Below the pieces are notes generated by a model. The model did not search any database. It had not been told where the DNA came from and worked only from the letters and a program-made list of their open reading frames with translations. Below are positions 6,001 to 28,146 of a stretch of DNA of 64,000 nt, one piece after another (the stretch's first letter is position 1; every line of letters begins with the position of its first letter). The stretch comes from Arenicola marina (lineage: Eukaryota; Annelida; Polychaeta; Arenicolidae). The DNA is taken from NCBI GenBank assembly GCA_964019135.1, contig OZ025258.1, forward strand, positions 14,725,771-14,789,770, given 5' to 3'. The translations under genes and the position numbers were made by a program.

Positions 6001-7348
6001 CAGGGGCTGGGGTGTATTGGACAGGGGCTGGGGTGTATTGGACAGGGGCTGGGGTGTATTGGACAGGGGCTGGGGTGTATTTGACAGGGGCTGGGGTGTA
6101 TTGGACAGAGGCTGGGGTGTATTGGACAGGGGCTGGGGTGTATTGGACAGGGGCTGGGGTGTATTGGACAGGGGCTGGGGTGTATTGGACAGGGGCTGGG
6201 GTGTATTGGACAGGGACTGGGGTGTATTGGACAGGGGCTGGGGTGTATTGGACAGGGGCTGGGGTGTATTGGACAGGGGCTGGGGTGTATTGGACAGAGG
6301 CTGGGGTGTATTGGACAGGGGCTGGGGTGTATTGGACAGGGGCTGGGGTGTATTGGACAGAGGCTGGGGTGTATTGGACAGGGGCTGGGGTGTATTGGAC
6401 AGGGGCTGGGGTGTATTGGACAGGGGCTGGGGTGTATTGGACAGGGGCTGGGGTGTATTGGACAGGGGCTGGGGTGTATTTGACAGGGGCTGGGATGTAT
6501 TGGACAGGGGCTGGGGTGTATTGGACAGAGGCTGGGGTGTATTGGACAGGGGCTGGGGTGTATTGGACAGGGGCTGGGGTGTATTGGACAGGGGCTGGGG
6601 TGTATTGGACAGGGGCTGGGGTGTATTGGACAGGGGCTGGGGTGTATTGGACAGAGGCTGGGGTGTATTGGACAGGGGCTGGGGTGTATTGGACAGGGGC
6701 TGGGGTGTATTTTACAGGGGCTGGGGTGTATTGGACAGAGGCTGGGGTGTATTGGACAGGGGCTGGGGTGTATTGGACAGGGGCTGGGGTGTATTGGACA
6801 GGGGCTGGGGTGTATTGGACAGGGGCTGGGGTGTATTGGACAGAGGCTGGGCTGTATTGGACAGGGGCTGGGGTGTATTGGACAGGGGCTGGGGTGTATT
6901 TTACAGGGGCTGGGGTGTATTGGACAGGGGCTGGGGTGTATTGGACAGGGGCTGGGGTGTATTGGACAGGGGTTGGGGTGTATTGGACAGGGGCTGGGGT
7001 GTATGGGACAGGGGCTGGGGTGTATTGGACAGGGGCTGGGGTGTATTGGACAGGGGCTGGGGTGTATTGGACAGGGGCTGGGGTGTATTGGACAGGGCTG
7101 GGGTGTATTGGACAGGGGCTGGGGTGTATTGGACAGGGGCTGGGGTGTATTGGACAGGGGCTGGGGTGTATTGGACAGGGGCTGGGGTGTATTAGACAGG
7201 GGCTGGGGTGTATTGGACAGGGGCCGGGGTGTATTGGACAGGGACTGGGGTGTATTGGACAGCGGCTGGGGTGTATTGGACAGGGGGTGTGGTGTATTGG
7301 ACAGGGGCTGGGGTGCATTGGACAGGAGCTGGGGTGTATTGGACAGGG
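1..7348. repeat. 21-bp minisatellite array, about 350 units, cut by window start
   Basis: The whole segment is a head-to-tail array of a 21-bp unit with core GTATTGGACAGGGG followed by CTGGGGT. Variants include cagcggctt, cagaggct, cataggct, gtgtgtggga and gtaatgg. Because 21 is a multiple of three and the unit lacks stops in all six phases, it gives very long false open frames on both strands, such as GVYWTGA, GCIGQGL and CPIHPSP heptads. A few irregular units (near 961 and 7095 one base short, near 5838 one base long) shift the phase. Variant blocks recur at 171, 3509 and 4769, showing segmental amplification inside the array. The array lies in the intron upstream of the guanylate cyclase exon at 7593, so it is not read as protein. 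Confidence 0.97.
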
Positions 7349-7592: not shown

Positions 7593-7678
7593 AGCACAAG
7601 ATCCACATAAGTGAGACGACGAGAGCGTTATTAAGCGCGGACTTCGTTACGCAAGAACGAGGACAAATTGATGTTAAG
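7593..7678 (+). CDS. Guanylate cyclase, penultimate coding exon (C-terminal part of catalytic domain)
   Basis: The exon encodes HKIHISETT, then a linker RALLSADFVTQ, then ERGQIDVK, and ends AAG|gtaagc, a near-ideal splice donor. This order (K-I-H-I-S-E-T, hydrophobic linker, E-R-G-x-I-x-V-K) is the conserved stretch just before the last strand of the class III guanylyl cyclase catalytic domain, best matched by receptor-type enzymes that make cGMP from GTP. The next exon found on this strand, at 28087, starts with GKG and restores the family motif VKGKG...TYWL exactly, with a phase-0 junction. The acceptor is the AG at 7591-7592 (two bases complete a split codon) or possibly the AG at 7593-7594. 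The GTP- and metal-binding exons must lie upstream of the window. Whether the enzyme is membrane or soluble cannot be decided from this part. Confidence 0.85.
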
Positions 7679-8751
7679 GTAAGCATAGCATTCTTTGAAA
7701 ATGGCGGGTGCGTGGGTCCTGGATACTCAATAATAATGACTCTTTAATAACCGAAGATGCGGGCCCTATTACAAATCATTTATTTATAACAATTAAGCAG
7801 TATATGTCAAGATGAGGAATGGAACAGTTTAAGAACATTAATGTATGACGTATAGTTGAGTTGATGACAAACCAGTGTTGTAAAACGTGGCGTTGTATGT
7901 ATGGTTGTCCTGTGTTCCTGTATTTCGAAAAAAAGACCCCAAAAAACTTATGTATTGGTACCAAAATAATGGTTCTAAGCCTCTTAATTTTCGAAATATT
8001 AAGTAATTTTGTTTTTCTTGTCCGCCATCTTGAAAAATGGCGGATGATAATCAATAATGTGCTTTTTTGACATCTGCGTACCCGAAAACCTATGGACAGG
8101 CATCACAATAACAGTTTTATCCTTCTTAGTTTCTAAGATATCGCGTTTCATTGGTGTGATTATCCATCATTTTGAAAAATGAGCGCCATAGCCGTCAGGG
8201 GTCAAGTCTGACATGAATTTCGGACATGTGTGGCCAATTTCATGCTTTTACCACAAAATGCATGATTTTATTCCATAAATTTGTCAACTTAAAAACCACT
8301 GTGAAAGTGCGATTTAGCCAGGCTTCGAACAAATAAAGTAACCCTCTGCCGAGTACGAACATATCGGGTTTAATTATCCATTACAAATTAATGTTCAACT
8401 AATTATACAAACATGCCATGCCATCGTTTAAGAGCAGCATTACTGGGCCCCAAGATAATATGTGAGCAGCCCCCCCCCCAGCGCCTGTGGAAAATAGTCA
8501 CTTCAGGATTTGCAGTAAGGGCAAGGTGAAAAACTGTTAAAGTGACTTTTGTTTTCAATGCTATGAGGAAGAATGTCGTTTTCCATGCAAAAATTAGGCC
8601 ATCTGAGATATGGAGCCGCCTCCTCGGTCGTAATAAAATGGTGAACCCCCGTATCCCCCCGAACTCCCGCCCCCGTTGGCAAGTTTTCAGTGAACCCCAC
8701 CCTCTACTTTTTAGATCTGCGCCTGTGCTGCCTACAATATATATAGGCGGC
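7679..8751. other. Intronic unique sequence, poly(G)-linked repeat fragment at 8560-8700
   Basis: No gene seen. At 8560-8625 there is a copy of a dispersed repeat with the phrase aggaagaatg...gcaaaaattaggcc, also found at 17290, 18276 and, reversed, at 51375-51465. A poly(C) run lies at 8470. Confidence 0.5.
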
Positions 8752-10271
8752 CGGGCTGTCCAGGGGGGCAGGCTGTCCAGGGGGACCGGCTGTCCAGAGG
8801 GACAGGCTGTCCAGGGGAACCGGCTGTCCAGGGGGACCGGCTGTCCAGGGGGACAGGCTGTCCAGGGGGCCAGGCTGTCCAGGGGGACCGGCTGTCTAGG
8901 GGGCCAGGCTGTCCGGGAGGACAGACTGTCCAGGAGGACAGGCTGTATGCGGCCAGGCTGTCCAGGGGGTCAGGCTGTCCAGGGGGCCAGGCTGTCCAGG
9001 GGGCCAGGCTGTCCAGGGGGGTAGGCTGTCCAGGGGGACAGGCTGTCCAGGCGGCTAGGCTGTCCAGGGGGCCAGGTTGTCCAGGGGGCAGGCTGCCCAG
9101 GGGGACAGGCTGTCCAGGGGGACAGGCTGTCCAGGGGGGCAGGCTGTCAAGGGGGGCAGGCTGTCCAGGGGGGTAGGCTGTCCAGGGGGACAGGCTGTCC
9201 AGGGGCACAGGCTGTCCAGGGGGACAGGCTGTCCAGGCGGCTAGGCTGTCCAGGGGGCCAGGCTGTCCAGGGGGCAGGCTGCCCAGGGGGACAGGCTGTC
9301 CAGGGGGACAGGCTGTAGGTGGCCAGGCTGTAGGCGGCCAGGCTGTAGGCGGCCAGGCTGTCCAGGGGGACCGTCTGTCTAGGGGGCCAGGCTGTCCAGG
9401 GGCCCAGGCTGTCCAGGGGGACCGGCTGTCCAGGGGGACAGGCTTAGGCGGCCAGGCTGTAGGCGGCCAGGCTGTCCAGGCGGCCAGGCTGTCCAGGTGG
9501 CCAGGCTGTCCAGAGGGACCGGCTGTCCAGGGGGCCAGACTGTCCAGGGGGACAGGCTGTATGCGGCCAGGCTGTCCAGGGGGTCAGGCTGTCCAGGGGG
9601 CCAGGATGTCCAGGGGGCCAGGCTGTCCAGGGGGGTAGGCTGTCCAAGGGGACAGGCTGTCCAGGGGGACAGGCTGTCCAGGGGGACAGGCTGTCCAGGG
9701 GGACAGGCTGTCCAGGCGGCTAGGCTGTCCAGGGGGCCAGGCTGTCCAGGGGGCAGGCTGCCCAGGGGGAAAGGCTGTCCAGGGGGACAGGCTGCCCAGG
9801 GGGGCAGGCTGTCAAGGGGGGCAGGCTGTCCAAGGGGGACAGGCTGTCCAGGGGGACAGGCTGTCAAGGGGGACAGGCTGTCCAGGGGGACAGGCTGTCC
9901 AGGGGGACAGGCTGTCCAGGGGGGCAGGCTGTCCAGGGGGGCAGGGGGGGCAGGCTGTCAAGGGGGGCAGGCTGTCCAGGGGGACAGGCTGTCCAGGGGG
10001 ACAGGCTTACAAGGGGGACAGGCTGTCCAGGGGGACAGGCTGTCCAGGGGGACAGGCTGTCCAGGGGGGCAGGGGGGGCAGGCTGTCCAGGGGGTCAGGC
10101 TGTCCAGGGGGGCAGGCTGTCCAGGGGGGCAGGCTGTCCAGGGGGGCAGGCTGTCGAGGGGGGCAGGCTGTCTAGGGGGACAGGCTGTCCAGGGGGGCAG
10201 GCTGTCCAGGGGGGCAGGCTGTCCAGGGGGGCAGGCTGTCCAGGGGGGCAGGCAGTCCAGGCGGGCAGGCT
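8752..10271. repeat. 17-bp minisatellite array, about 89 units
   Basis: The unit is GGCTGTCCAGGGGGACA, with frequent variants ending ggca, ggcca or cggcta. Seventeen is not a multiple of three, so three units make a 17-residue pseudo-repeat in each frame, and the open frames on both strands are by-products. A marker block (ggctgtatgcggccagg followed by gggtcagg) occurs at 8941 and again at 9555, indicating a higher-order duplication of about 614 bp. The array lies inside the guanylate cyclase intron. Confidence 0.95.
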
Positions 10272-10816
10272 TTGGAAAACTAAAGACATCGCTTCTTCGA
10301 AATCTTGAACATGTCATTGTCAACAAAGATTAATCGGACATTGCAAGATAATATACGACTGGGGAGGAATATATGATTTGATTGTAAAACGTCAAAAACA
10401 AGTATTCTGTTTTCCTACACAGCAAGGGCATTAGTCGAGGATGTGCTTTACAGTCAGTATTAGACAAGAACAAACATGGCTAGGTTTATAAAAAAACAAC
10501 TAGTCGCTATACAATCTTGGAATCCATCTTTTTATGAGAAAACGCGAAAAGTGAAGTAAATTGTAATATGCTAGATAGAAACTGATAAAAACTGGATGTA
10601 ATATGTTGCCTCCCCAGGTATTTTTTATTTTATTTTATTTATATGTTGTTCGGAAGTAGGTAAACAACTGCATAGAATGAGCTGTCGAGTGAAACACGAT
10701 TGGGTACATTGGTTTAGAATAATAAGCTATAGATACACCACCCATTGTTGTCAAAAGACATTTGATGTTTCTATGTATCGGCAAACAAAAAACACAGCAC
10801 AAATATTCCAATGTAA

Positions 10817-10945
10817 ATATCAAGATATCAAATATCCCATTGTTGATATCAATATATCAAATATCCCATGGTCGATATCAAGATATCAAATATCCCATTT
10901 TCGATATCAAGATATCAAATATCCCATTGCATCAAGATATCAAAT
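10817..10945. repeat. 29-bp tandem repeat rich in GATATC, about 4.5 units
   Basis: Units share atatcaagatatcaaatatc followed by ccatt and a short variable end. Decayed copies run on to about 11036. The repeated GATATC is self-complementary. No coding meaning is seen. Confidence 0.85.
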
Positions 10946-11060
10946 AAACAAATTTACACACTATGTCAAATATTTCAATGTGAATACCAAGATAGCAGAT
11001 ATCCCATTGGTTGTATCACGATATTAGAAATGCCCTTGTTTATTCAAGATAAGCTGTAAA

Positions 11061-14000
11061 CGTACACGTTTAAGATGGCGGCAAGCCATGGCTTTTAGCT
11101 TCAAGCCACTGATTGTGTCGCCCTTCACATGGGTCATAAAAGTACATGTTTAAGATGGCGGCAAGCCATGGCTTTTAGCTTCAAGCCACTGATTGTGTCG
11201 CCCTTCACATGGGTCATAAAAGTACATGTTTAAGATGGCGGCAAGCCATGGCTTTTAGCTTCAAGCCACTGATTCTGTCGCCCTTCACATGGGTCATAAA
11301 AGTACATGTTTAAGATGGCGGCACGCCATGGCTTTTAGCTTCAAGCCACTGATTGTGTTGCCCTTCACATGGGTCATAAAAGTACATGTTTAAGATGGCG
11401 GCAAGCCATGGCTTTTAGCTTCAAGCCACTGATTGTGTCGCCCTTCACATTGGTCATAAAAGTACATGTTTAAGATGGCGGCAAGCCATGGCTTTTAGCT
11501 TCAAGCCACTGATTGTGTCGCCCTTCACATGGGTCATAAAAGTACATGTTTAAGATGGTGGCAAGCCATGGCTTTTAGCTTCAAGCCACTGATTGTGTCG
11601 CCCTTCACATGGGTCATAAAAGTACATGTTTAAGATGGCGGCACGCCATGGCTTTTAGCTTCAAGCCACTGATTGTGTCGCCCTTCACATGGGTCATAAA
11701 AGTACATGTTTAAGATGGCGGCACGCCATGGCTTTTAGCTTCAAGCCACTGATTGTGTCGCCCTTCACATTGATCATAAAAGTACATGTTTAAGATGGCG
11801 GCAAGCCATGGCTTTTAGCTTCAAGCCACTGATTGTGTCGCCCTTCACATGGGTCATAAAAGTACATGTTTAAGATGGTGGCAAGCCATGGCTTTTAGCT
11901 TCAAGCCACTGATTGTGTCGCCCTTCACATGGGTCATAAAAGTACATGTTTAAGATGGCGGCACGCCATGGCTTTTAGCTTCAAGCCACTGATTGTGTCG
12001 CCCTTCACATGGGTCATAAAAGTACATGTTTAAGATGGCGGCACGCCATGGCTTTTAGCTTCAAGCCACTGATTGTGTCGCCCTTCACATGGGCCATAAA
12101 AGTACATGTTTAAGATGGCGGCAAGCCATGGCTTTTAGCTTCAAGCCACTGATTGTGTCGCCCTTCACATGGGTCATAAAAGTACATGTTTAAGATGGCG
12201 GCACGCCATGGCTTTTAGCTTCAAGCCACTGATTGTGTCGCCCTTCGCATGGGTCATAAAAGTACATGTTTAAGATGGCGGCAAGCCATGGCTTTTAGCT
12301 TCAAGCCACTGATTGTGTCGCCCTTCACATGGGTCATAAAAGTACATGTTTAAGATGGCGGCAAGCCATGGCTTTTAGCTTCAAGCCACTGATTGTGTCG
12401 CCCTTCACATGGGTCATAAAAGTACATGTTTAAGATGGTGGCAAGCCATGGCTTTTAGCTTCAAGCCACTGATTGTGTCGCCCTTCACATGGGTCATAAA
12501 AGTACATGTTTAAGATGGCGGCAAGCCATGGCTTTTAGCTTCAAGCCACTGATTGTGTCGCCCTTCACATGGGTCATAAAAGTACATGTTTAAGATGGCG
12601 GCAAGCCATGGCTTTTAGCTTCAAGCCACTGATTGTGTCGCCCTTCACATGGGTCATAAAAGTACATGTTTAAGATGGCGGCAAGCCATGGCTTTTAGCT
12701 TCAAGCCACTGATTGTGTCGCCCTTCACATGGGTCATAAAAGTACATGTTTAAGATGGCGGCAAGCCATGGCTTTTAGCTTCAAGCCACTGATTGTGTCG
12801 CCCTTCACATGGGTCATACAAGTACATGTTTAAGATGGCGGCAAGCCATGGCTTTTAGCTTCAAGCCACTGATTGTGTCGCCCTTCACATGGGTCATAAA
12901 AGTACATGTTTAAGATGGCGGCAAGCCATGGCTTTTAGCTTCAAGCCAGTGATTGTGTCGCCCTTCACATGGGTCATAAAAGTACATGTTTAAGATGGCG
13001 GCAAGCCATGGCTTTTAGCTTCAAGCCACTGATTGTGTCGCCCTTCACATGGGTCATAAAAGTACATGTTTAAGATGGCGGCAAGCCATGGCTTTTAGCT
13101 ACAAGCCACTGATTGTGTCGCCCTTCACATGGGTCATAAAAGTACACGTTTAAGATGGCGGCAAGCCATGGCTTTTAGCTTCAAGCCACTGATTGTGTCG
13201 CCCTTCACATGGGTCATAAAAGTACACGTTTAAGATGGCGGCAAGCCATGGCTTTTAGCTTCAAGCCACTGATTGTGTTGCCCTTCACATGGGTCATAAA
13301 AGTACATGTTTAAGATGGCGGCAAGCCATGGCTTTTAGCTTCAAGCCACTGATTGTGTCGCCCTTCACATGGGTCATAGAAGTACATGTTTAAGATGGCG
13401 GCAAGCCATGGCTTTTAGCTTCAAGCCACTGATTGTGTCGCCCTTCACATGGGTCATAAAAGTACATGTTTAAGATGGCGGCAAGCCATGGCTTTTAGCT
13501 GCAAGCCACTGATTGTGTCGCCCTTCACATGGGTCATAAAAGTACACGTTTAAGATGGCGGCAAGCCATGGCTTTTAGCTTCAAGCCACTGATTGTGTCG
13601 CCCTTCACATGGGTCATAGAAGTACATGTTTAAGATGGCGGCAAGCCATGGCTTTTAGCTTCAAGCCACTGATTGTGTCGCCCTTCACATGGGTCATAGA
13701 AGTACATGTTTAAGATGGCGGCAAGCCATGGCTTTTAGCTTCAAGCCACTGATTGTGTCGCCCTTCACATGGGTCATAAAAGTACATGTTTAAGATGGCG
13801 GCAAGCCATGGCTTTTAGCTTCAAGCCACTGATTGTGTCGCCCTTCACATTGGTCATAAAAGTACATGTTTAAGATGGCGGCACGCCATGGCTTTTAGCT
13901 TCAAGCCACTGATTGTGTCGCCCTTCACATGGGTCATAAAAGTACATGTTTAAGATGGTGGCAAGCCATGGCTTTTAGTTTCAAGCCACTGATTGTGTCG

Positions 14001-14270
14001 CCCTTCACATGGGTCATAAAAGTACATGTTTAAGATGGTGGCACGCCATGGCTTTTAGCTTCAATCCACTGATTGTGTCGCCCTTCACATGGGTCATAAA
14101 AGTACATGTTTAAGATGGCGGCACGCCATGGCTTTTAGCTTCAAGCCACTGATTGTGTCGCCCTTCACATGGGTCATACAAGTACATTTTTAATATGGTG
14201 GCTTGCGATGGATTTTAGTTTAAAATCACCGTTTGTGTCTCCTTTCACACGGGTCACACTTGGTGACAAA
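11061..14270. repeat. 80-bp satellite array, 39 good units plus one decayed
   Basis: The unit boundary phrase taagatggcg recurs every 80 bp from 11071 to 14111. A fortieth, diverged copy begins at 14191. Units are about 97% alike, so the array is young or well homogenised. Each unit contains the palindrome GCCATGGC and, in 34 of 39 units, AAGATGGCGGC, which matches the known consensus of the zinc-finger factor YY1. Five units (starting near 11551, 11871, 12431, 13951 and 14031) carry ggtgg in place of ggcgg. The unit is interrupted by stops in translation. It lies in the guanylate cyclase intron. Confidence 0.97.
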
Positions 14271-15036
14271 ATGTTACACGATACACGACGCTCATTTTCC
14301 TCTTACGCTTTGTGGGTTGACCATGTAAGGCCGTCGTTAATAATCACAAACTAACGTGCGCTGTGCAGTAAATGAAGCTTATTTGTCGGGGGTCACATTT
14401 CGCTGGAAACGGCCATCCAAGGGGCGCGTGCTTACCAAGGCTTGAAGGACCTTGCTCGTGGAAATCTCGTCGAGATCTCGTGCGATACCCGGTGCAGCTT
14501 TTCTGACGGTCACACCGAGCATTGTACAGAGACAGGCAACACGCTAGGTCGACGCACGATATAAGAGAGTGAGAGGCATGTAGTAATTAACATTACCTGA
14601 GCTTCAGGCCAAGGTTGACGTCAAGGTTTGCACGATCGCCGCTCCTTACCATGCTGAGAGTGAAAATATATTAACTGGAAAGGGCGCCAGCGCTTTTTGT
14701 GGGCTTTTTTGTGAAAGACGCTTTATGAATTGTCATGTTACAAATTGGACAATCAACAGGTAAAGAAATGACAGCGGGGTTCCATGGTCTCATTGTTGGG
14801 GTGCCAGCCTGAATTAATTAAGTTTTCAGCCTGACAAAAATCATGCGCAAAACAAAATCTATGAACAACAGAATAATGATTTTTTGTATCACCTTTGTTT
14901 ACCCAGCGGCTGAAGCTATTTTCAGGTATGTTTGCTTATATACGAACGCGTATATGTGGCATCACCAGGCGAATTGGAAGCCGCAAGAAATTTAAGGTAT
15001 GAATAGCTGTTATTGCGAAGGTTAGACATCTTTAGT
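14271..15036. other. Intronic unique sequence, no gene recognised
   Basis: A short minus-strand open frame at about 14375-14525 (from MLGVTVRKAAPG to a stop) has no recognisable motif and is not called. Otherwise nothing was seen. Confidence 0.4.
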
Positions 15037-15271
15037 TTTGATAATTCAGTCGCCTTGAGGGCTCTGACCACCTGAGAGCCTAACGGCTCGTGGATCGGTG
15101 GTTCGAGCCCCGCTGGGGCCAAGTCTGTGTGGTCACAAGATAAAGATCCCATGTCCTTCTTTGCAAAGAGTAGGGGGTTACCCCTGGGGACATGGCTCGA
15201 TTTTCCCCTTCTCCCATTGAAGCGATATGAGCAACAGTGGTTAAAGCGTCCTGAATATATAACCAACCAAC
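15037..15271 (+). mobile_element. tRNA-derived SINE with (AACC)n tail, 5'-truncated head
   Basis: It contains the internal promoter box B (ggttcgagccc near 15100), the family body (caaagagta...ggggttacccctgggg, then gcgatatgagcaa) and the 3' end gttaaagcgtcctgaatata followed by aaccaaccaac. The box A part of the tRNA-like head is missing or diverged. Related copies lie at 24998, 37808, 42271 and 43766. Confidence 0.85.
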
Positions 15272-16243
15272 TTGACATTTCACTCTCCAAAAATTTAATA
15301 CATAGAAATACAATGATAAAAAATCCAAAATACACGTTGATACATTGGGATCTGCAGTTTCACCTACCCCCCCCCCCTCCCCTCCGCTCACCACACACAT
15401 ACACCCTTCCAAGCTGGCGCCAGTTTTGTGATTATGATTGTCATGTACCCATGTCCCTGACCGAGTATGGGTAACCAAAATTCACATCGAAAATATATAT
15501 ATGGGTGACGTACGCTTTTTCAAACACACCACACGACCAACAAAGCCTTATCTACGGCATATCTATAGTATTATATAGAGTATATATCCCGCCGAAAACC
15601 GTTGGCCATCCAAAGACATCCCAACGGGAAGGCACGCCTAAAATATCGTCGAAATTAAGCAGACTGCAACCAGGCCCACATGGTTCCGGTTTCCTGTTCC
15701 GGTGCGACCACCGGTGTTTGGGATAGGCGTGTGATGGAGTCTTTCATCGATGAGGCTTGTTTCCATGCGTCTGCGTGACTACAGGACAAGCTGCTTTGCA
15801 CTCCCGCGTTGCAGGCAACCGCCCCCCCCCCCCACCTCGTTCACAGACACTCCCACCCGCCACCCCCCGCCCCCAAGATCTTGCCATTAAGTGTCAAGTT
15901 CAAGGCCCTAACTCTTGCAGCGAGGTTTTTGGTGTGGAGGATGGAGGGAAGGGGGGTGGGAGTGGGGGGTCGGGGGGGGGGGGGGCTACGGTGCGAAATG
16001 ATATGTAATTGCCCGTTTGCGCAGCACGGAAAATATGTTGTTCACCTGCATAAGATATGCCAATAAATTACTTGCTAAAATATGCCCAGGTATTTCCATG
16101 AAATACGTCCATCAGAATATTGATGAAAACTTTGTTCAAATTTGCCGTAGTAACTTTTCTTCCGGCTGTTACGCGCCCTCCAGCCCCACCTCAACGCAAA
16201 CCTCCACTCCCCGCCCTTTGGGCTTTAAATGACCCTCCCAGAC
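15272..16243. other. Intronic spacer with poly(C)/poly(G) tracts
   Basis: Homopolymer C runs at about 15367 and 15820 and a G run near 15970 give proline- and glycine-rich false frames. A segment at 15655-15735 faintly resembles 5S rRNA (see findings). No gene is called. Confidence 0.4.
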
Positions 16244-16400
16244 ACAATAGACCGATCCAGGCTGTCAATCGTTCTTTGACGTCACTGTTCTTTTTATCAC
16301 TTGTACCTGCCATCAGCTAAGATTGTCAATTTCATACTCAGGATTAAGGAAAAAAGGACTCCAGCGTGGGCGGGGCTTAGTGTTTAGATCGGTCTATTGT
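16244..16400. mobile_element. MITE, 157 bp, TIR ACAATAGACCGATC
   Basis: The segment begins acaatagaccgatc and ends with its exact reverse complement gatcggtctattgt. The two subterminal ends differ: the left has ccaggctgtcaatcgttctttgacgtc, the right has ggcggggcttagtg. The same pair of ends, in the opposite order, bounds the neighbouring copy at 16415. No coding capacity. The family of the mobilising transposase is unknown. Confidence 0.8.
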
Positions 16401-16414
16401 AGATGCCACAGCGC

Positions 16415-16684
16415 GCAATAGACCGATTCACACTCCGACACTAAACCCCGCCCACGCTTGCCTCCTTATTCCGTGAGCGTGAGTATGAAATTGACAATCA
16501 TAGCTCATAGTAGGTACAATTGTGTAGAACTCATCTCTGAAGCTGACAAGAAAGTGAAATGCTGCTTTGTTTGTCCGACTTGTTTGTCGGACATAACGCA
16601 CGTGGAAGACCTTTTTTCACTACATGATTGGGTAAAAGAAACAGTGACGTCAATGAATGATTGACAACCTGGATCGGTCTATGC
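16415..16684. mobile_element. MITE, about 270 bp, same family in inverted orientation
   Basis: It begins gcaatagaccgat and ends atcggtctatgcg, with the subterminal motifs of the 16244 copy in reverse order (cactccgacactaaaccccgc at the left, tgacgtcaatgaatgattgaca at the right). It carries about 110 bp of interior absent from the shorter copy, including a small hairpin (gtccgacttgtttgtcggac). It lies 14 bp from its neighbour. Confidence 0.8.
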
Positions 16685-19573
16685 GAGTTTGATCCCATTT
16701 CATTCTCAAGCTGCAACACGGCCGCCTGGTGTCTCGATCTGGTACCACTAACTGCCAATATATTCCAATCCTAAGCACTGATAACTGTTTCCACAGTCAT
16801 TGTCAAATACTGCCTAGCACCGTCCAGCGACTAAAAACTTTGGTCAGTGACCAAAGTGGTCATTATTATGTCTTTTGCAGTAGTCTTTTATAGGTATTGT
16901 TCATGCTTGTTGGCTCTAATGCTCGCCTTGGTGACTGAGAAAAGTCAATCAATTCTCACGGCACGCTCCAGTTTAGCTTGTATTACAATTGGGTACTCTC
17001 ATAATCGCGAGATTTAAGGCATCGGGCGTCGTTTGTGTTATGGCAGTATCGCATGTTGCCAAATATCTTTGATGTTACCTGCGCACCCTTTATATAGGCC
17101 ACGCCAGGAGCAGATCTAGGGGAGAGAGGGGGGGGGGGTTAGGAGGGTTGCAACCCCCCCTACTCTTTGGGAACGCGGGCATACGGTCTAAAACTTGGGC
17201 TTTCGGACGAAATAAATCGCAAAATAGCATTTCGCAGATTCAACCCTGTGGCGGATCCATGGGGTGGGGGGGGGGCGGGGGCGTTATTGAGGAAGAACGC
17301 TGTATTTCCCCGCAAAATCAAGACCATCTTACCTGAGGTGTAGACCACAACCCCCCCCCCCCCCCGCACCCAGGTTGTAAAAAAATTGGTAGACAGCCGA
17401 GATCATTCCCCCCGCCCACCGGTCGCAAGATTTTAGAGAACAGGAAAGCCCCACCTTCAGGTCGCAACCCTTCCCATCCCCCCTCATTTCCTAATTCCTA
17501 GATCCACTCACGGACGCACATATGGAAATGTCGCGTGACTAAAGGTGCGTCACGTGACTAATGGTGCGTCATACGGTCGACGGGTAAAACATCAAAATCA
17601 GGTCGTCTACTAAATTTGGCCTCCCATAACTTACTTGTTTCCCTGCTTCTGGGAATAATGATCGGCGTGATCTTTGGCAATCAGGGCTTTTCACGCAGTA
17701 CCCCGGTATAATGTGCCGTCTCTCTGGCGTGGTATAGGCACAGAAACGTCAGTTGGAACTGGAAATTGATTGAAAACTCTGGGTTAATAAAGGCACGCAA
17801 GGTGAGACTCGTGTCGTATCTAACGAAAACAATTGATATTTATGTTTAAGACTGTCAGATGGAACTAGCAAATATTGTCTATCGTCTAGACGATCGTTGG
17901 AACTAGTGCACGCAGAACGCCTTTAGACAATTGTCTGCTACGAACAATGTGAGGGTTTGCCGTGCGGGGGCACCTTAGGTCATCCCACTTGGTGTGCCAT
18001 ATATTTGTCAGGGCCCACTTGTACTATCTGAGATCATCCTATAAAGAAGAATTCCTAAATCGTTGACGCTATGAACTAATTTTCTTCGTCGTTCACAAAG
18101 CTGTAACGGCGATTGGGTGTCTATCGTGTCGTGATAACACGATCCTGTATTTTATTAGTCCATCTAATGTGTTCCGTTAATCCACTTAACGCAGTAATGT
18201 GCGATTTCCGCGTGCAGATCATCTCAAGGGCGGATCCAGAGGGGGTCCAGGGGGGCCGGACCACCCCACCCTTTTTGAGGAAGAATACCGTTTTTTAATG
18301 CAAAAATTAGGCCATCTGAGGCCTGGACCGCCCTTTTTTGAGGAAGAACGCTATCTGAGGCGACGTGAATCCCCCCCCCCCCACCCCTATGCTACATGGA
18401 CATTGGAAAATGCTACCTTATGACCTTGACCTTGATGGTTGATCGTTTGTCGACTTGGAAGACAAAGAGTGTAACTAACTATTATAATTAATAGAGAAAG
18501 GGGGAAGGCGTTGAGGAAGAGGGGGTGGGTGGGTAGGGACACCACACAGAGAGCGGGTGCATTTAACAAATCTGGTACGCACCAAAACATGTCCCACCGG
18601 ATACCAGTGGCGGATTTCACGAACCCAATTTAGACGACTATACCTGGGCTTAGTTGGCTAAAGTTACCATGTATGGGCGATTTTAGTCGACTAAGCCCCG
18701 TAGCCGGCTACGGTTGAACGTGAAATAGGCCAAAGAGAGAACTCTGCTATCTTCCCTGGATCTGCCCGTGGAATCAACCAAGAACTAACAGGCCAAAGTG
18801 TAACCATATCCCCCTGAAAATTAGCCCTAATTGCATGCTTCCGGTCTAATCACACTTCCGGTCTCTCCGTCCTTGACAGGGATATAGCCTATAGTCTCAT
18901 ATAGCGACCCCGTTGCCTTGACAACACGACTTTTGTTGTATATGTATAGATAATACGTTATCTTTCATTTATCGACCAAGTCATTTTCCGTGTCAGTTTA
19001 ATGCCCTTTTGCGAGAGAAGCCATTGGCTCGATTTTCGGCTTGCGAAATAAAGGTGGAAAATCTTTGATGCCCATAGAAAAGCCCGGCAATCCGATGACC
19101 TTACGATGCCCTTTGCACAGCGCATCTTAACAGGCCGATCGGCTTAATAGCTTAATAGCTTAATACCTCTCTGGTAATCACGGGCCCAATGACTGCAGCC
19201 TTTAATTCTCCTCCGGAGGACCCGCGTCATCTTCGACTACATTTGTCTTGGCTTAATTGGCAGTTGACCTCGATTGGGAGAACCGCGGTCGCAACCGGAC
19301 CGGATAAAGAATCCATTCTCCGCAGCAAATGACCCCCCCCCCCCCACCCCCACTTCCCACACACTTCCAGTGGAAGTCTTCTACCCTTTAGCCTTTACCA
19401 CCATATGAAAATAACTTCAGCGTCTACATTGTTCTACGATATCGGATGTACGGGGTTTGTTAAATGGGAACCATGTCGAATTGCACCGTTATATAATATT
19501 ATCCTTGTTGTGTGGACATCAGATTTGTTAGATCGTGTTGACTTTGTTCGAGATTCGACGTGTATATTGGTCT
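16685..19573. other. Intronic spacer with poly(G)-linked dispersed repeats
   Basis: At 17105-17175 and 17240-17340, and again at 18225-18375, there are copies of a repeat with ggcggatc(c/t)a, long G or C runs and gaggaagaacgct. A short 10-bp repeat (gcttaatagc type) lies at 19141-19170, and a poly(C) run at 19331. No gene was recognised. Confidence 0.45.
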
Positions 19574-20806
19574 CATCTCGCTGGTCTTCATATTAATGGT
19601 AGCCATCTCGCTGGTCTTAATATTAATGGAATTCATCTCGCTGGTCTTAATGTTGATGGAATCCATCTCGCTGGTCTCAATATTAATGGAATTCATCTCG
19701 CTGGTCTCGATATTAATGGAATTCATCTCGCTGGTCTCAATATTAATGGAATTCATCTCGCTGGTCTCAATATTAATGGAATTCATCTCGCTGGTCTCAA
19801 TATTAATAGAATCCATCTCGCTGGTCTCAAAATTAATGGAATTCGCTGGTCTCAATATTAATGGAATTCATCTCGCTGGTCTCAATATTAATGGAATTCA
19901 TCTCGCTGGTCTCAATATTAATAGAATCCATCTCGCTGGTCTCAAAATTAATGGAATTCGCTGGTCTCAATATTAATGGAATTCATCTCGCTGGTCTCAA
20001 TATTAATGGAATCCATCTCGCTTGTCTCAATATTAATGGAATTCATCTCGCTGGTCTCAATATTAATGGAATCCATCTCGCTGGTCTCAATATTAATGGA
20101 ATCCATCTCGCTTGTCTCAATATTAATGGAATTCATCTCGCTGGTCTCAATATTAATGGAACCCATCTCGCTGGTCTCAATATTAATGAAATCCCTCTCG
20201 CTGGTCTCAATATTAATGGAATTCATCTCGCTGGTCTCGATATTAATGGAATTCATCTCGCTGGTCTCAATATTAATGGAATTCATCTCGCTGGTCTCAA
20301 TATTAATGGAATTCATCTCGCTGGTCTCAATATTAATGGAATTCATCTCGCTGGTCTCAATATTAATGGAATTCATCTCGCTGGTCTCAATATTAATGGA
20401 ATCCATCTCGCTGGTCTCAATATTAATGGAATTCATCTCGCTGGTCTCAATATTAATGGAATTCATCTCGCTGGTCTCAATATTAATGGAATCCATCTCG
20501 CTGGTCTCAATATTAATGGAATCCCTCTCGCTTGTCTCAATATTAATGGAATTCATCTCGCTGGTCTCAATATTAATGGAACCCATCTCGCTGGTCTCAA
20601 TATTAATGAAATCCCTCTCGCTGGTCTCGATATTAATGGAATCCATCTCGCTGGTCTCAATATTAATGGTAGCCATTTCGCTGGTCTCAATATTAATGGA
20701 ATCCATCTCGCTTGTCTCAATATTAATGGAATTCATCTCGCTGGTCTCAATATTAATGGAATCCCTCTCGCTGGTCTCGATATTAATGGAATCCATCTCG
20801 CTGGCC
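19574..20806. repeat. 30-bp minisatellite array, about 41 units
   Basis: The unit contains tctcgctggtctcaatatta followed by atggaattca. Thirty is a multiple of three, so frames stay open in several phases and give false repeats (GLNINGIHLA forward, MNSINIETSE reverse). A unit lacking five bases (ggaattcgctgg) occurs at 19841 and at 19956, marking a duplicated 115-bp block. The array lies in the guanylate cyclase intron. Confidence 0.96.
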
Positions 20807-20884
20807 TGGTATTAAATGAAAATATCGAAATTGTCAGTGGCATCACAACATTGACCAATCAGGGCCGGACCACCGCAATTTGAA

Positions 20885-21090
20885 ATTTGTTAATCCGTTT
20901 TCGTCTTCTCATCCCAGTTTTGATACATTTATTTGTTAACCAACTCGTAGTTGGCTTGGATCTGGTTTCCCTCATGATATAGACCACTTAATGTCAATTG
21001 TACGGGTTTGTATTGTTCGTATGGTGTGATAATGTGCAGTAATAATATTTTTAAAGAAAACATATTTAACTTTACAACGCAAACAATATT
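20885..21090 (+). repeat. Dispersed repeat, copy 1 of a direct pair
   Basis: It shares with 22143-22360 the phrases cgtcttctcatc, gttaaccaactcgta, ctggtttccctcatgatata and acaacgcaaacaatat in the same order. The two copies are 1.26 kb apart and clearly diverged. Nature unknown; no coding frame. Confidence 0.7.
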
Positions 21091-22142
21091 GCGACGGATG
21101 GGGGGTTAGAATGTTTACAACCACGGGAGGGGGGGGGGGCTCTGCTCTCGGAAAATCTGCGACCGGGGGGGGGGGGGGAGGGGGGATACGCCACAGGTTT
21201 CATCTACAAGATGTCACTTGTTCGTCGAAAAACAGCTTTTACAGTGTATGCTCAAGTTCCCAAGGGCGGCTGTGGTTGCATCCCCCCAACTCCCACCCTC
21301 CTCCAGCCCCTAGATTCGCCCCTCCCCATGTCCGTTATAAGGAGAGCATGATGACGCAAGAGACGCCAAGATCAACGGCTTCCTATGTGTTTTTTTCTAA
21401 TACGGGAAGACCTTGGAGATATAAATATATACCAGCTGGCGAAGGTAATTGCACAGTGAATGTAATTTTCAGGGTCCAGTATGGTCCTGTCGGGAAGGGT
21501 TAGGGGGGCGGTTAGAAATATGGGATATTAAGTGGGTGATTGGGGGGTGGGTGGGGGGAAGGGGGCAATGGGTAAGGGGCGGTGAGATCATATAGGGGGC
21601 ATGTCACCACATCAATCACCGCTTCCGGCTATGCCCCATCTAGCCATATACGTATTAGTGATTAAGATGGCGATCACACGTGGCAGAACTATGGCCTTGA
21701 CCTTGTCCTTGGCTCCGCATCAACGACGGGGTTAGTGTCCGTCTCGAAGAAAGTTGCTGGCCAATCCCTGTTTACGTGTGTGCCCGCCCCATCTGGCCAC
21801 ACTGGACCATCTAGCCATCTATTGGGCCTGTCAACTGTCCACCAGCCACACACAATATCTCGGGCGCTTCAGTTGGTTTTCATTATCCTTGATTAATAAT
21901 ATTAAAGCGGGTCAGCATGTAGCCGAGAGCGGGAATAATCGACGCAGGCGGCTGGCCCCCAAGTTATCCGGCTTAATTGGTTGGTTACGCCGACCACCAA
22001 CCCAGATGATGGGGGCTGAAGCCTGGTCACGGCTCCCAATCAGGTGCTCGTTGGATTGATACCGGCCTAAAGCCACCAAAGAAAAGTTGGCGTCGCAATT
22101 TTACGAGATAAAAATAACGAGATAATCTAGGCTCTTAATTAT

Positions 22143-22360
22143 TATCAATCCGGTTTTTTCGTCTTCTCATCGCAGTCCTACGCATTTATCTGTTAACCAA
22201 CTCGTATCTGGCTTGGGTCTGGTTTCCCTCATGATATAGACAATTTTGATGTCATGTATTCCTCGCACAGTTTGTATTGTTGGTATGGTATAATAATGCT
22301 CGAATAAGAATATTTCCAACAAAAAAATGCTATTTAAATTGACAACGCAAACAATATAAG
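22143..22360 (+). repeat. Dispersed repeat, copy 2 of a direct pair
   Basis: Homologous in the same order and orientation to 20885-21090. Between the copies lie poly(G) runs (21128, 21165) and unique intronic sequence with no recognised gene. Confidence 0.7.
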
Positions 22361-22770
22361 GAGATACGCACCCCTTTATATAACACCTGGTATACGATGC
22401 GACTTTGTGATGTTAATGAAAATTACATGCCGTGATACAGTGTGCGACACTAAAGCTCGACCGGCGGACCGAATCGAGTATTTCACTGGCCGGTCGAGTG
22501 TTAATGCCGAGACACCGAACCGGTCGGTCTTGTACCTATTTCGTCGCACTATAAGCTCTATCGGATACACTAGCTCTTTCAGTAATACCAATCTTTTATT
22601 TTTATTAAATATACGGTGCGTGAGCAAGCTGCTTAGACCTATTCCAGCGAAAGGGCTGTACCGTCACCACGGGATCTGATCGAGACCTTACGAGACAGGG
22701 ATATTATGCTCTGCTTCAATGCTTTAGCCTCAGCGGCCTGTGCTGCTTACCTCCCGGCGTTTGCCTCTCG

Positions 22771-22955
22771 CCACTCGCTTGACACAAAAAAATCGGTAAA
22801 AGCTGTACTTGGATGCACAATTAACCACTGAATTTAATTCGTATACCAGCATTATAACCACCCGCCACTCGCTTGACACAAAAAAATCGGCAAAAGCTGT
22901 ACTTGGATGCACAATTAACCACTGAATTTAATTCGTATACCAGCATTATAACCAC
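22771..22955 (+). repeat. 94-bp tandem duplication, two units
   Basis: The phrase ccactcgcttgacac starts at 22771 and again at 22865. The rest of the unit, through taattcgtataccagc and cattataaccacc, is repeated almost unchanged, so the duplication is recent. Confidence 0.9.
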
Positions 22956-23958
22956 CAGAGCAGGTTTATGTAATATATGAGCGGTGGGACAGATGATAAA
23001 CCCGAGTGCGGCTGTTTCATGAGTGACTGTCAGTGTCAGGCGAGCTAATGTCTTCTGTGGGTTTTCCCTGTCGTATGACGTAATACTGAAAGGGCACGCA
23101 GTGCAGACATCCTATTGGCATCATTTGCCATAACTCAATTATCCTCTCACACAATGGGGAAAAATGCGGCGCTTTGTGAAAGAGGACAAGCCGCCGACAT
23201 ACACCTAACAAAAAACTTAAGTCATACCTTGCATTATGGATTTGTTGGTTGGGTGTGGCCTGCAATAGACACACCCAACAAAAAATAAAACGCCGTCGGC
23301 GAAGTCAAAAATGCATGATCGCGAATTTTCAATCGATATCACATGATAAAATGTTGTTTTTCCCGACTGTAATTGCGCTTTGGTATCAAACAGCATCGTT
23401 AACGGGCAGCACAGCGGGTCTCGAGGGGGACTCTCGCGTCTCAGTCACGCGCGAACATGTTCGGCACATCCAGATTGGTCCCCTTCTGCTTCATCTTTTT
23501 GCTTTTGTTGCGTGGCTACAAATTGCTGTCGGACATATCCGTGCTTAAGTAGAAGATTTTTTTTTTATATATTTTTTTTTAGTTAAACATCATTTCTTTT
23601 CTGAGGTTCCCCTCGAAGGGATGACATCGAGCAGGGTCAGTTTTTGAAAGAGTTTTGGGATGGGCACTGTACGAATCACGGCGTGAGTCGTTGCTGTGGC
23701 TTCCTTCTGTCTGTCTGTCTCCGGTTGTGTCCGGTCCGTGTGATGAAAGGATGCTCGCGTTGAGCCTGATTCGGACATGCGTTGCTACTAGCACCCATGT
23801 AGCAGAAAACATGTATCGATCCTCGATGAGGGAATCTCACAGCGGTTCAGGCTGGCAGGTTGGTGCTGGAAGCTTGGTGCCAAGTACTGTGCCCTGAGCA
23901 GCATTCAAAATATGAAACTGTTGAGCATTGCACTGCGCAGACGCATATTGAATTGTCA

Positions 23959-24084
23959 ATGCCGTTCTATGGGCGTTCTATTGGAGACATTTTGTTGCCA
24001 TTGCCGTTCTATGGGCGTTCTATTGGAGATATTTTGTTTGCATTGCCGTTCTATGGGCATTCTATTGGATATATTTTGTCTTCA
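23959..24084 (+). repeat. 42-bp tandem repeat, three units
   Basis: The phrase tgccgttctatgggcgttct recurs at 23960, 24002 and 24044. Downstream to about 24520 the sequence is AT-rich with short repeats of aattgaattcaatac. No gene. Confidence 0.85.
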
Positions 24085-24810
24085 ATAATGATGGAAGAAA
24101 CGCATTTTATTGCAGGTTTCATTCTCATTCTAAAGTATGCCCATTCACTACAAATTTCATTGAATCCAATGTCAATACAAAGTAAGCTTTAATCAATATA
24201 AATTTTATTTAATTCAAGTTTCATTCACTACAAGTTTCGTTCAGTACCAGTTGCATACAATATAAGTTGCATTCAATATAAGCTCCAATCAATTAAGCTC
24301 CAGTCAATATTCAAATTTCATTCTATATATTTTATTTAATAAAAAATTTAATTAAATAAACAATTAATTTAATAACAAAATAATTAAATAAAAATCTAAT
24401 TAAATAAACAAATAAGTAAATACAAATTGAATTCAATACAAATTGAATTCAATACAAATTGAATTCAAGAAAAATTTCATTCAATAAAAAACTTATTCAA
24501 TAAAAATTTCATTCAATGTATTAAAATGTGACGTTTTCACTCAATTCCACTCAGTATTTGTTTTATTCAAAACATAGACAACCGTAGAACCACCGTGGAG
24601 TTGCAGTTAAGCCACCATAGTTTCGTAGAATGATTGATATACTAACGCAAGGTCGGTTCTACGAACTGGAGTGTCAGCTCGTCCGGAGGCCTACGCACCA
24701 CTGCGCTTTACAACGTTACTCAAGCCTCATTTAACGCCGTTCGCCACAGACGCGACTAGTCCTACTTCGTAAACCCTGACAAGCCCCACATGCCCAGCAT
24801 TATCTGTTGA

Positions 24811-24865
24811 CAATAGACCGATCCAGGCTCTCAATCATTCACTGATGTCGGAGTATTGATCGGTA
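24811..24865. mobile_element. Internally deleted 55-bp MITE derivative
   Basis: It starts caatagaccgatccaggctc and ends gtcggagtattgatcggt, which is the reverse complement of the other subterminal end of the MITE family seen at 16244 and 16415. The two ends are fused with almost no interior. Confidence 0.6.
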
Positions 24866-24997
24866 CTAGAGCTAGCGATGAAAGGCGACAATCTGTGGCC
24901 ACATGGGACTCATTCCATGAGATTGAGATTGTCTCAGAGCACTGACGTGCCTGCCGTGTTATTTGACATCACCTAAAGGGACCATCGGCTCAGATAG

Positions 24998-25255
24998 TTG
25001 GTTGGTTGGTTACTCAGGACGCTTTAACCACTTTTGGTTATATCGCGTCAATGGGAGAAGGAAGGGAGAGTGGAGCCATGTCCCCGGGGGTAACTACTCT
25101 TTGCGAAGGAAGAAATATAATCTTTATCCTGCGACCACACAGACATGGCCACAGCAGGGCTCGAACCACCGATTCACATGCCGTTAGGCTCTCAGGTGGC
25201 CAGAGTACTCACTAAACGCGAGCGCTCTAGCCCACTGAGCTATCGGGCCGGCCCC
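24998..25255 (-). mobile_element. Full-length tRNA-derived SINE with 12-bp target-site duplication
   Basis: Read on the minus strand, it has box A (tagctcagtggg) and box B (ggttcgagccc) at tRNA-like spacing, the shared body, and the 3' end gcgtcctgagta followed by aaccaaccaacc. The element is flanked by cggctcagatag at 24986-24997 and 25256-25267, a perfect 12-bp direct repeat typical of target-primed reverse transcription. It is the best preserved of the five copies and defines the family ends. The (AACC)n tail suggests its LINE partner recognises such a tail rather than poly(A). Confidence 0.92.
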
Positions 25256-25282
25256 CGGCTCAGATAGACAAGACAGGATTGG

Positions 25283-25410
25283 CAATAGACCGATCCATAC
25301 TCCGACACTAAGCCCCTCCCACTCTTGAGTCCTGTTTTCCGTAATCGTGAGTATGCCTTATAGCGTTATAACGGTTATAATGACGTGCAGTTGTAACCCG
25401 AAGCTGTCAC
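25283..25410 (+). mobile_element. MITE fragment, one end only
   Basis: It begins caatagaccgatccatactc, then cgacactaagcccc, matching the left end of the 16415 copy for about 120 bp before similarity is lost. No opposite inverted end was found. Confidence 0.6.
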
Positions 25411-28086
25411 ATAATTAATTACCTATGGCATGCCAGCCGGTGGTGGTGGGGGGTGGGGGGGCACTACATTACCACAGTGGTGGGGGTGCGCCGCCCACGC
25501 CATAGAGAGCATTTGGAAGGCGAGAGAAAAGTGCGCGATTTTGTGGTCACTGAGAGAGAAAATATGTTGGATAAAAAGGCATCTAAAAATAGACTGACAT
25601 TCATGACAAGGTATCTGGAGGTTTATTATTTGAACACTTTCGATACCAACTGGACTATATGGTCATATATAAGTCTCAAATGGTCACATCGAGCGACATT
25701 GCAGATTTCTGCTTCGGAGATTGAGGGACAAAAGGCGAAAAAGGGGGTAATTTGGGCGCCACATATGTATATAACTAACTATATGTAATGCCCCCACCCC
25801 ACCCCCCTTCGGGCCTTTCAGCAATTATTCACCCAACGTATAACCTTCAAGAGATATCCATCCTCCTCCCTAAGATGATGGAGATGTGGCCTATTTTGCA
25901 GTAAGTTGGGTTTTTCGTTGTTTCGGCGCCATTTTTGCTTATGGCGAAAGGAAGCTGATTTGAGACTGGCTGAGCTGACTGCAGCCATTACCTGGATGCC
26001 CCGTCGCTCGGCTCAGAATAGTCTGACCTTTTGTATGCATTGACGTAAACCTCAGCCCATCGTGATGGACTAATCCCTCTCGGCTGAAGAGTTACCCTTC
26101 CCATCTTGCGGGTTACCAAAATTTCCTCATGAATATTTACAATATGCGGCTATGGCATATATATATACAACATGGCTCTCGGTTGTAACCGGTATGACGG
26201 CAACGAGCACCAATTGTGATGACGTAGTACACATCAATCTACGCCTTTCCTACCAGTGACGATCCCTACTTAATACCAACATTTCGACCTTTTATGGATG
26301 TAATAAGAACATGAATCAATCTTCTTTATAATCATTTATTAATCTAAGCCGCCGTCAATCGAGGCAACACAATTATAGACACGACGGAAGCCATAACAAT
26401 GAAATCGCCTTGCAAAGGCCCTTTTTTCTCCTCGGTGAGAGAGTTCGCCGTCTGCCCGCGTTAGGTCTTTGATGTGCCTTTCTTACAGTAGTCGCTATTG
26501 TGGACTTACCAAAGCCTGCTTTCGCGAACGAACAAGGCTAGAATGGAAGGATTGGCAGTAGATTCAATATGCATTCGCTGCAAGACATGAACAAAATTCC
26601 CACAATAATAACTATGCACGAATAGGTTTCTAATTGTCCGTAGACAAGACTACAAAGTATGGGGGGGGGGGCGCATTGAAGCAACACCACAAAAGTACTG
26701 CCGCTATGCCGCTGTATACCTCAACATAGCAATTTTATAATGATCTATAATTAACATCTGACTTGTGGATCATTTCACTAACCTTTATTCGTAAAACGCC
26801 TTACCTGTATTGCCTGGCAGCAGAGGAAGGAAGGAAAGAAAGTCGAAGTTATCAGTATTATTTTATTATTTTAACAGTATTGTCCGGAACAAAACATTCC
26901 CGAATTTGGCTAAACGCTATGCTAATAATCGCTGTATAACGCTTATTTCGGTTGCTCGTAAACATACAATATATCGTCACAAATGGACATGGACATGGAC
27001 AACATAGGGTTACGATTCCGTAACTCTTGTCCAGGGTGTTATTTCAATCTCGTAACTCTTGATGTTAATTTAGCATAAGTATATGGCAACATGGTCAATA
27101 ATATTGGTGGAAAATAAATTGCACGAAGATGGTTGCACCCCAATAACTGCAACACAACGCTTATTTCCGTTGCTCGTAAAATTACGACCTATCGTTATAT
27201 TAGCATGTAACAAATACGATTACGAGCTCGTAACTCTCACGATCACCTGGTCTGTGAATGTAGGCGCATGCCAGATACTCAGAGTAAGCCACAAGGGGTT
27301 GGTGTGTAAAGTATTGAAGCTCAATTAAACCTATTAAATGCCCTATACTATTAATATATATATGTAATGATGGTATGCAAATTTGACATAATTTTTTTTT
27401 TATTGATGAATTTTTATGTTTATCAATCAACAGTTAAAAATTACACGGGGAATAAACCACCAAAACTGCTTTATCTTTTAAATAAAAGCCGATATCAGTA
27501 CCACCTGTTCAGTTTGCTATATCTGTTCATGCTTATCACACCGACCGTAACGTTATCGCGACTACCAATTTTCTATATTTCATTCCCTTTAAAGGCCCCT
27601 AAATGATAGATCTGGAAAATACTACATGTAAGCATACGGGAAAACAAGATGGTTTAGTTTTGTGATTTTGACAATTAATAAAGAAAAATATTTTTTCAAA
27701 ATTTTAATCATTCTCACATTGAGGTAAAACCACTTGTGCTGAATAGTAATTCTAACGTGTGCAACTACATCCAGATGCAGATTTTGCTCCCGTTTTCCTA
27801 TTTCCCGACCATTTTCCTCGGAGAAATCGCGGCGTAAATTCGCCTACACCTCCCTCGTGTAGCCATGTGGGTTGCATCTTGTACATGACGTCACATTTTA
27901 ATACATGTATTCATGGGTTGCCTAATTCTCAAAATATCGTGTTTACTGACCTCTCGCGCATATTTAAATGTTACAGGTGGTTGTTACGTTTGGCATCTTA
28001 GACCAATAATATGTGATAGTTGCTATCATCAGTAGTTTTATTTTTGTTTTCATCGGGTCTTTAAGCCATATGTTCTCTTCTTGCAG
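25411..28086. other. Intronic unique sequence, last part of the large intron
   Basis: Poly(G) run at 26659. The phrase acgcttatttc(g/c)gttgctcgtaaa occurs at 26939 and 27159, part of a diverged 220-bp duplication. A candidate 68-nt minus-strand exon at 26510-26577 is described in findings but is not called. The strong pyrimidine tract and acceptor of the terminal cyclase exon end this stretch. Confidence 0.45.
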
Positions 28087-28146
28087 GGCAAGGGACTGAC
28101 GAAAACCTACTGGCTGCTCGAGAGCACACCTTCTACGCCACGGTAA
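28087..28146 (+). CDS. Guanylate cyclase, terminal coding exon (GKG...TYWLL to stop)
   Basis: The acceptor is tatgttctcttcttgcag. The exon reads GKGLTKTYWLLESTPSTPR and then the stop TAA at 28144-28146. GKGxxxTYWL is the closing signature of guanylyl cyclase catalytic domains, directly after the VK that ends the exon at 7678. The tail after TYWLL is only eight residues, shorter than in many receptor cyclases, which often carry longer C-terminal extensions. A GT follows CCACG, so a further splice is formally possible, but the in-frame stop reads directly across it and a terminal exon is the simpler reading. The AATAAA at 28801 could serve as polyadenylation signal. Confidence 0.87.
   Translation, partial: GKGLTKTYWLLESTPSTPR

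Follow-up and report, generated by a model that had tools for sequence, protein, structure and literature searches.

A predicted NIT-domain guanylate cyclase gene of the annelid Arenicola marina with introns probably enlarged by local minisatellites

In the accessible part of PMC7400543, animal NIT-domain guanylate cyclases (NIT-GCs) are described as carrying two membrane helices around the NIT domain, followed by the cyclase domain, and as occurring also in annelids. In Platynereis, nitric oxide signalling of the photoreceptors requires NIT-GC1, according to the digest PMC10584369. For the enlargement of introns by minisatellites, the available text of PMC12783039 reports an earthworm metallothionein whose first intron was enlarged by minisatellites that differ between duplicates of identical coding sequence. 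The 'mirage' minisatellites of the amphioxus Adh and globin genes have been proposed to help create new introns, as far as the available text of PMC3087553 goes, and that of PMC2812944 ties minisatellites at exon-intron boundaries of recent human paralogues, with about four copies and 160 bp on average, to new introns. Here we describe a NIT-GC gene of Arenicola marina, hereafter the focal gene, whose last two exons lie in a stretch of 64,000 nucleotides (the window; C11:14725771-14789770, plus strand) of a genome that was searched over 867 Mb in 762 contigs. Very probably, the gene is intact and its introns have grown by local minisatellites and are spliced in the ordinary way.

The initial annotation of the window had proposed that a 20.4-kb intron filled with arrays divides the C-terminus of a guanylate cyclase between two tiny exons of 86 and 60 bp, contiguous in the protein and joined in phase 0 with strong splice signals. 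The two exons, here named D and E, are present exactly as claimed and are the last two coding exons. They encode the peptides HKIHISETTRALLSADFVTQERGQIDVK and GKGLTKTYWLLESTPSTPR, the latter followed by a stop, and the 20,408-bp intron between them runs from AAG/GTAAGC to TTCTTGCAG/GGC (slashes mark splice junctions). The remaining catalytic exons, on whose presence upstream on the plus strand the proposal depended, were found in order. The matches listed by a whole-genome search with the cyclase family include three upstream places on the same strand with the domain in order, at C11:14706410 (domain positions 2-40), 14715826 (9-112) and 14721695 (107-142), and the same three were recovered by tblastn with a paralogue as query. 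The five exons A to E, ordered on one strand, give a single frame of 632 codons plus stop across four junctions, all GT-AG and in phase, with splice sites read from the sequence; introns A-B, B-C, C-D and D-E measure 9,407, 5,557, 11,562 and 20,408 bp, respectively. Junction A-B is supported by the frame, by Pfam positions 2-39 followed by 41-182, and by paralogues with the same junction. For exon C we chose the donor GAAG/GTACGG, which gives the usual loop length and a 99-bp exon as in six paralogues; an earlier donor, with which the loop would be two residues short, was rejected. No rival terminal exon, defined as an AG followed by a GKG-coding start, was found besides exon E on scanning window positions 7679-38000. 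That the two small exons are a chance motif is ruled out by the collinear upstream exons, the cyclase domain match and the alignment to NPR1 given below. Exons D and E thus end a predicted, apparently intact five-exon gene, and they are easily overlooked behind a 10.9-kb array and a 20.4-kb intron.

Taken together, exons B-E match Guanylate_cyc (PF00211) of Pfam with an E value of 1.8e-51. Their best solved-structure match is NPR1 (E 2.5e-56), collinear across junctions B-C, C-D and D-E with gaps of one residue in exon B and two residues in exon D; two residues at the C-D junction were missing from the Pfam query and included in the structure query. The exon D peptide alone (28 amino acids) gave no match to solved structures. 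The motifs VETIGD and RYCLFGD are identical to those of NPR1 in the exon B-E alignment, and DIVGFT was recognized in exon A by reading. The glutamate of VETIGD and the cysteine of RYCLFGD are the GTP-specific residues of such cyclases; these and the metal aspartates are in place. N-terminal to the cyclase, exon A encodes a NIT domain (PF08376, E 1.7e-23; score 84.7 bits, cut-off 24.9) at residues 112-351. It lies between two hydropathy peaks, at 69-87 and 370-388, and the 632-residue model has no others. Candidate NIT-interface arginines, in VERGTSA and GIQRALG, are each found in four of five aligned proteins including the focal one, with five of the seven NIT copies of the genome aligned. The product is therefore predicted to be a NIT-domain receptor guanylate cyclase with a cyclase of the natriuretic-peptide-receptor type. 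As a putative enzyme, it would make cyclic GMP from GTP on a signal read by the NIT domain; judged from the family, the ligand may be nitrate, nitrite or nitric oxide.

All three arrays that the initial annotation had placed in intron D-E, with units of 17, 80 and 30 bp, were recovered. It had also recognized the 21-bp array of the preceding intron, with a length, 'at least 7.3 kb', that was understated; the array actually measures 10,861 bp. Two features were overlooked, partly because of their place outside the window: the sensor (NIT) domain and, in intron B-C, a further large array, the fifth, of 1,110 bp with a 31-bp unit. The 21-, 80- and 30-bp arrays are restricted to the focal locus as far as the genome search reaches, which covered these three units and skipped very common words: all 202 exact dimers of the 21-bp unit, all 18 matches of a two-unit probe for the 80-bp array and all eight matches of an eight-unit probe for the 30-bp array lie inside the respective focal array. 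Within the 21-bp array, identity drops nearly steadily with the distance between units, from 0.954 at lag 21 to 0.905 at lag 336, as expected of local spread, and 74 distinct 21-mers occur in 516 windows of unit length, a count inflated by register shift. The introns would have grown as minisatellites arose and expanded locally, slippage or unequal exchange being the most likely mechanisms. A search of the window against Rfam gave no match, and none of the 10 intron open reading frames (ORFs) among the 20 put to Pfam, out of 78 listed, scored above the cut-off.

The arrays had also been suspected of burdening splicing, a suspicion that the splice-site scores do not bear out. Real donors of the focal gene score 8.4-11.4 and real acceptors 2.0-6.5, whereas the best decoy donors in the 21-, 17-, 80- and 30-bp arrays reach 6.6, 6.0, 3.7 and 2.6, and the best decoy acceptors -1.0, -1.0, 1.1 and -0.4, respectively. 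No decoy in the four large arrays tested thus comes up to even the weakest real site. Above the strong thresholds, no decoys occur in intron C-D, and four donors and eight acceptors occur in the 20.4 kb of intron D-E; ratchet-type AG/GT sites above the set thresholds were absent from all four focal introns. Since the large arrays lack competitive splice sites, the long introns would be removed by ordinary splicing.

A genome search listed seven NIT domains, those of the focal gene (F) and of six paralogues (P1-P6), for each of which 20-30 kb were examined. The cyclase exons through exon C are present in six of six paralogues, and exon C measures 99 bp in all seven genes, with boundaries set by us. 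Exon D was located in five of the seven (86 bp in F and P1, 89 bp in P2, 92 bp in P5 and P6) and exon E in four (F, P1, P2 and P6), each time at a phase-0 K/GKG junction after the lysine codon; the 20-30 kb examined per locus showed neither exon D nor exon E in P3 and P4, and no exon E in P5. A tree groups P3 with P4 (89/91) and P1 with P2 (98/99); its row for P6 was invalid, and the placement of P6 carries no meaning. Intron C-D measures 11,562 bp in F, 407 in P1, 1,366 in P2, 8,184 in P5 and 1,124 in P6, and intron D-E 20,408 bp in F, 1,731 in P1, 433 in P2 and 900 in P6. P1 and P2 are 80% identical over exons B-D, yet intron D-E holds an array of 1,466 bp in P1 and none in P2, and no common array was found when their introns C-D and D-E were compared. 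On the whole, the arrays of these two introns appear to turn over without conserved function. They resemble rapidly changing filler, such as the sister genes carry too, and are probably neutral.

The comparison within the family does not support the view of the initial annotation that the arrays are exceptional. Counting arrays with a period of at least 10, at least three copies and at least 100 bp, we found that they make up 39% of the focal gene span (nine arrays) and 42, 15, 26, 55, 31 and 8% of the spans of P1-P6, respectively. The seven loci comprise 98,958 bp within gene spans, of which arrays take up 32%, and 185,042 bp beyond them, of which they take up 21%; arrays of at least 1 kb number 10 inside and 10 outside. 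The share outside gene spans varies from 4% to 80% by locus. Large arrays are thus usual at NIT-cyclase loci, and the focal gene falls within the family range apart from its longest introns and its longest single array. As a caution, array-filled introns are common among the sister genes.

Several points weigh against our reading of the arrays as ordinary, locally grown filler in a normally spliced gene. Introns C-D and D-E of the focal gene are the longest measured in the family, and no other array in the stretches examined reaches the 10,861 bp of its largest one, the next measuring 7,221 bp. Eight other cyclase loci (L001-L008, exon-centred stretches of about 3.5 kb each, 27,981 bp in all) hold a single array of 214 bp, so that a high array load may mark NIT-GC loci, or introns of greater length, without extending genome-wide. 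The claim of usualness is limited to NIT-cyclase loci, because the background consists of the seven NIT-GC loci (284 kb) and not of a random genome sample. Not all arrays turn over fast: at the exon C acceptor, P1 and P2 have a 77-bp array in common. The splice-site weights behind the decoy scores are simple ones, and splicing as drawn is a prediction from genomic sequence. RNA folding favoured a stretch of the 80-bp array over its shuffles (z -3.2; 0 of 200).

The folding result would also suit an improbable alternative, in which the 21-bp array is regulatory: R-loops or G-quadruplexes of its G-rich transcript would slow or gate the splicing of exons C and D, and its length would tune expression. 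The sense strand of this array is 51% G and 10% C. Counted without overlap, it carries 199 sets of four G-runs whose loops are up to 12 long, against none on the other strand; single stretches of the 17- and 21-bp arrays fold mildly better than shuffles (z -2.1 and -1.9). However, only six such sets have loops of 7 or less, and the stretch of the 30-bp array folds no better than shuffles (z +1.05). As far as the genome search reaches, the 21-bp array is found in the focal gene only; the four paralogues in which exon D was located have introns C-D of 0.4-8.2 kb, and the lack of a common array in introns C-D or D-E of P1 and P2 likewise argues against regulation. We consider an assembly error behind the arrays, whether by inflation or by collapse, highly improbable. 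Assembly across 10.9 kb of array is difficult and the exact length is uncertain, but the many unit variants and the fall of identity with distance are unlike a copied artefact. Slightly less credible still is a dead or mis-joined gene, whose exons would be remnants making no full protein. Its very long introns with large arrays, its exon joins predicted from the genome, and a C8 relative that showed no full exon C in the search, so that broken relatives may exist, would fit this; 632 stop-free codons over five exons, GT-AG junctions in phase and the collinearity of exons B-E with NPR1 speak against it. An intact NIT-GC gene with ordinarily spliced introns grown by local minisatellites thus accounts best for the locus.

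The part worth following lies in the paralogues, five of which (P1, P2, P4, P5 and P6, not P3) hold tandem units that contain an exon-intron junction. In the focal gene, none of the eight splice junctions has a second copy in the gene, allowing up to five mismatches in 24 bases. In P4, a 33-bp unit with the exon A donor occurs in about 30 copies, and a 42-bp unit with the exon B acceptor in runs of about 8 and about 69. Splice junctions as hot spots for arrays were considered and rejected: six of 54 junctions lie inside arrays against 15.9 expected by random shifts, six or fewer occurring in 0.4% of shifts. One further junction, the P4 exon A donor, was missed at an edge called by Tandem Repeats Finder (TRF) and seen by eye. 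Junction arrays are thus rarer than random placement would give, as selection against broken exons would have it.

These arrays sit in a family whose copies differ in intron position, so that array-aided intron movement is open to test. The first cyclase intron lies at LY/S in F, P1, P2 and P5, at Q/VV in P3 and P4, and further upstream in P6. The 51-bp unit of P5 holds the live LY donor together with an AG/GT exactly at the Q/VV position, and the exonic part of the 42-bp unit of P4 (about 70 copies) is the stretch from LY/S to Q/VV to within two bases. It is conceivable, if doubtful, that introns in this genome grow and move by way of tandemly duplicated splice junctions; equally tentatively, the junction arrays of P4 and P5 would capture intron relocation in progress, along the lines proposed for amphioxus globins and human duplicated genes but in a further phylum. 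We found no report of junction-spanning minisatellites in annelids in titles and abstracts of the open-licence papers that the searches listed.

Table 1. Features of the focal gene, its repeats and the related NIT-GC loci (window positions count from the first nucleotide of the window; C denotes contigs)
Feature	Location	Strand	Description
Exon A	C11:14705084-14706525	+	1,442 bp; start codon, membrane helix, NIT domain, second helix, cyclase start
Exon B	C11:14715933-14716144	+	212 bp
Exon C	C11:14721702-14721800	+	99 bp
Exon D	window 7593-7678	+	86 bp; cyclase domain, ends IDVK
Intron D-E	window 7679-28086	+	20,408 bp, phase 0
Exon E	window 28087-28146	+	60 bp; GKG...TYWLL, stop TAA at 28144-28146
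AATAAA	window 28801-28806	+	likely polyadenylation signal, by position only
21-bp array, unit CTGGGGTGTATTGGACAGGGG	window 1-7348, plus about 3.5 kb before position 1	+	10,861 bp in total; 94% of intron C-D
17-bp array	window 8754-10271	+	1,518 bp
29-bp array	window 10800-11051	+	252 bp
80-bp array	window 11057-14256	+	3,200 bp, 97% matches
Dispersed repeat	window 15050-15271		about 222 bp; at least 39 further places, close to full length and 88-90% identical, among the 40 scored of 7,498 first-look candidates genome-wide
30-bp array	window 19573-20804	+	1,232 bp
AT-rich 16/32/48-bp array	window 24193-24517	+	325 bp
71-bp array	window 29296-30389	+	1,094 bp; past the likely 3' end of the gene
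P1	C2:42.22M		NIT-GC paralogue
P2	C2:42.28M		NIT-GC paralogue
P3	C6:24.18M		NIT-GC paralogue
P4	C6:1.37M		NIT-GC paralogue
P5	C2:3.97M		NIT-GC paralogue
P6	C6:4.14M	-	NIT-GC paralogue, read on the minus strand
Junction array, P1 (L025)			77-bp unit with exon C acceptor, 4.9 copies
Junction array, P2 (L028)			77-bp unit with exon C acceptor, 8.8 copies
C8 relative	C8:37520808-37522338		same kind of 77-bp unit; at least 20 partial exon C matches, mostly about 77 bases apart; no full exon C among the matches listed by the search
Junction arrays, P4 (L034, C6:1367300-1377299)	1241-2347, 2351-2706, 3297-6203		at both ends of one intron
Junction array, P5 (L037, C2:3965700-3975699)	1166-2006		51-bp unit with exon A donor, about 16 copies
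Junction array, P5 (L037)	4944-5124		43-bp array overlapping exon C donor by 11 bases
Junction array, P6 (L039, C6:4134900-4144899)	2393-2686	-	55-bp unit with acceptor, 5 copies

Downstream of the focal gene, window positions 48349-49536 on the plus strand carry a single frame of 395 codons for a rhodopsin-family receptor (7tm_1, E 1.4e-23), the sole receptor that Pfam found among 10 downstream ORFs. A weak, below-cut-off match to Phage_integrase (E 0.0039) at 63161-63793 on the minus strand may mark a tyrosine-recombinase element. Elsewhere in the genome, C5:41410901-41609352 and C6:35454051-37217581 each hold four cyclase places with equal or near-equal scores; stops inside the matches may reflect introns or broken copies. 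The mitochondrial genome was recognized in contig C762 (15,942 bp), with its genes on one strand in the order nd4L-nd4-(rRNA region)-nd1-nd3-nd2-cox1-cox2-atp8-cox3-nd6-cytb-atp6-nd5, named by eye from translations. This is the common annelid order. In cox1 of this contig, AGA stands at serine-like and ATA at methionine-like places, as judged by eye.

Compared by description with the known NIT-GCs, the focal protein has the same helix-NIT-helix-cyclase architecture as NIT-GC1 and NIT-GC2 of Platynereis and the placozoan NIT-GCs. The earthworm metallothionein, as far as the available text of PMC12783039 describes it, is a precedent for the present finding in that both are annelid genes with minisatellite-enlarged introns; the focal gene differs in holding several unrelated arrays. 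The earthworm repeat structure is common to two species. The boundary repeats of human duplicated genes, in the account accessible in PMC2812944, differ from the arrays of P4, with units in about 30 and about 70 copies, and from the focal gene, which has none. Like the amphioxus mirages, in the part of PMC3087553 available, five of the six paralogues have units that run across junctions, on the donor or the acceptor side; unlike the amphioxus genes, the focal gene shows no such unit at any of its splice junctions, and the host is an annelid rather than a cephalochordate. Junction-spanning minisatellites, known from amphioxus and, on a smaller scale, from human duplicated genes, thus occur also in an annelid.

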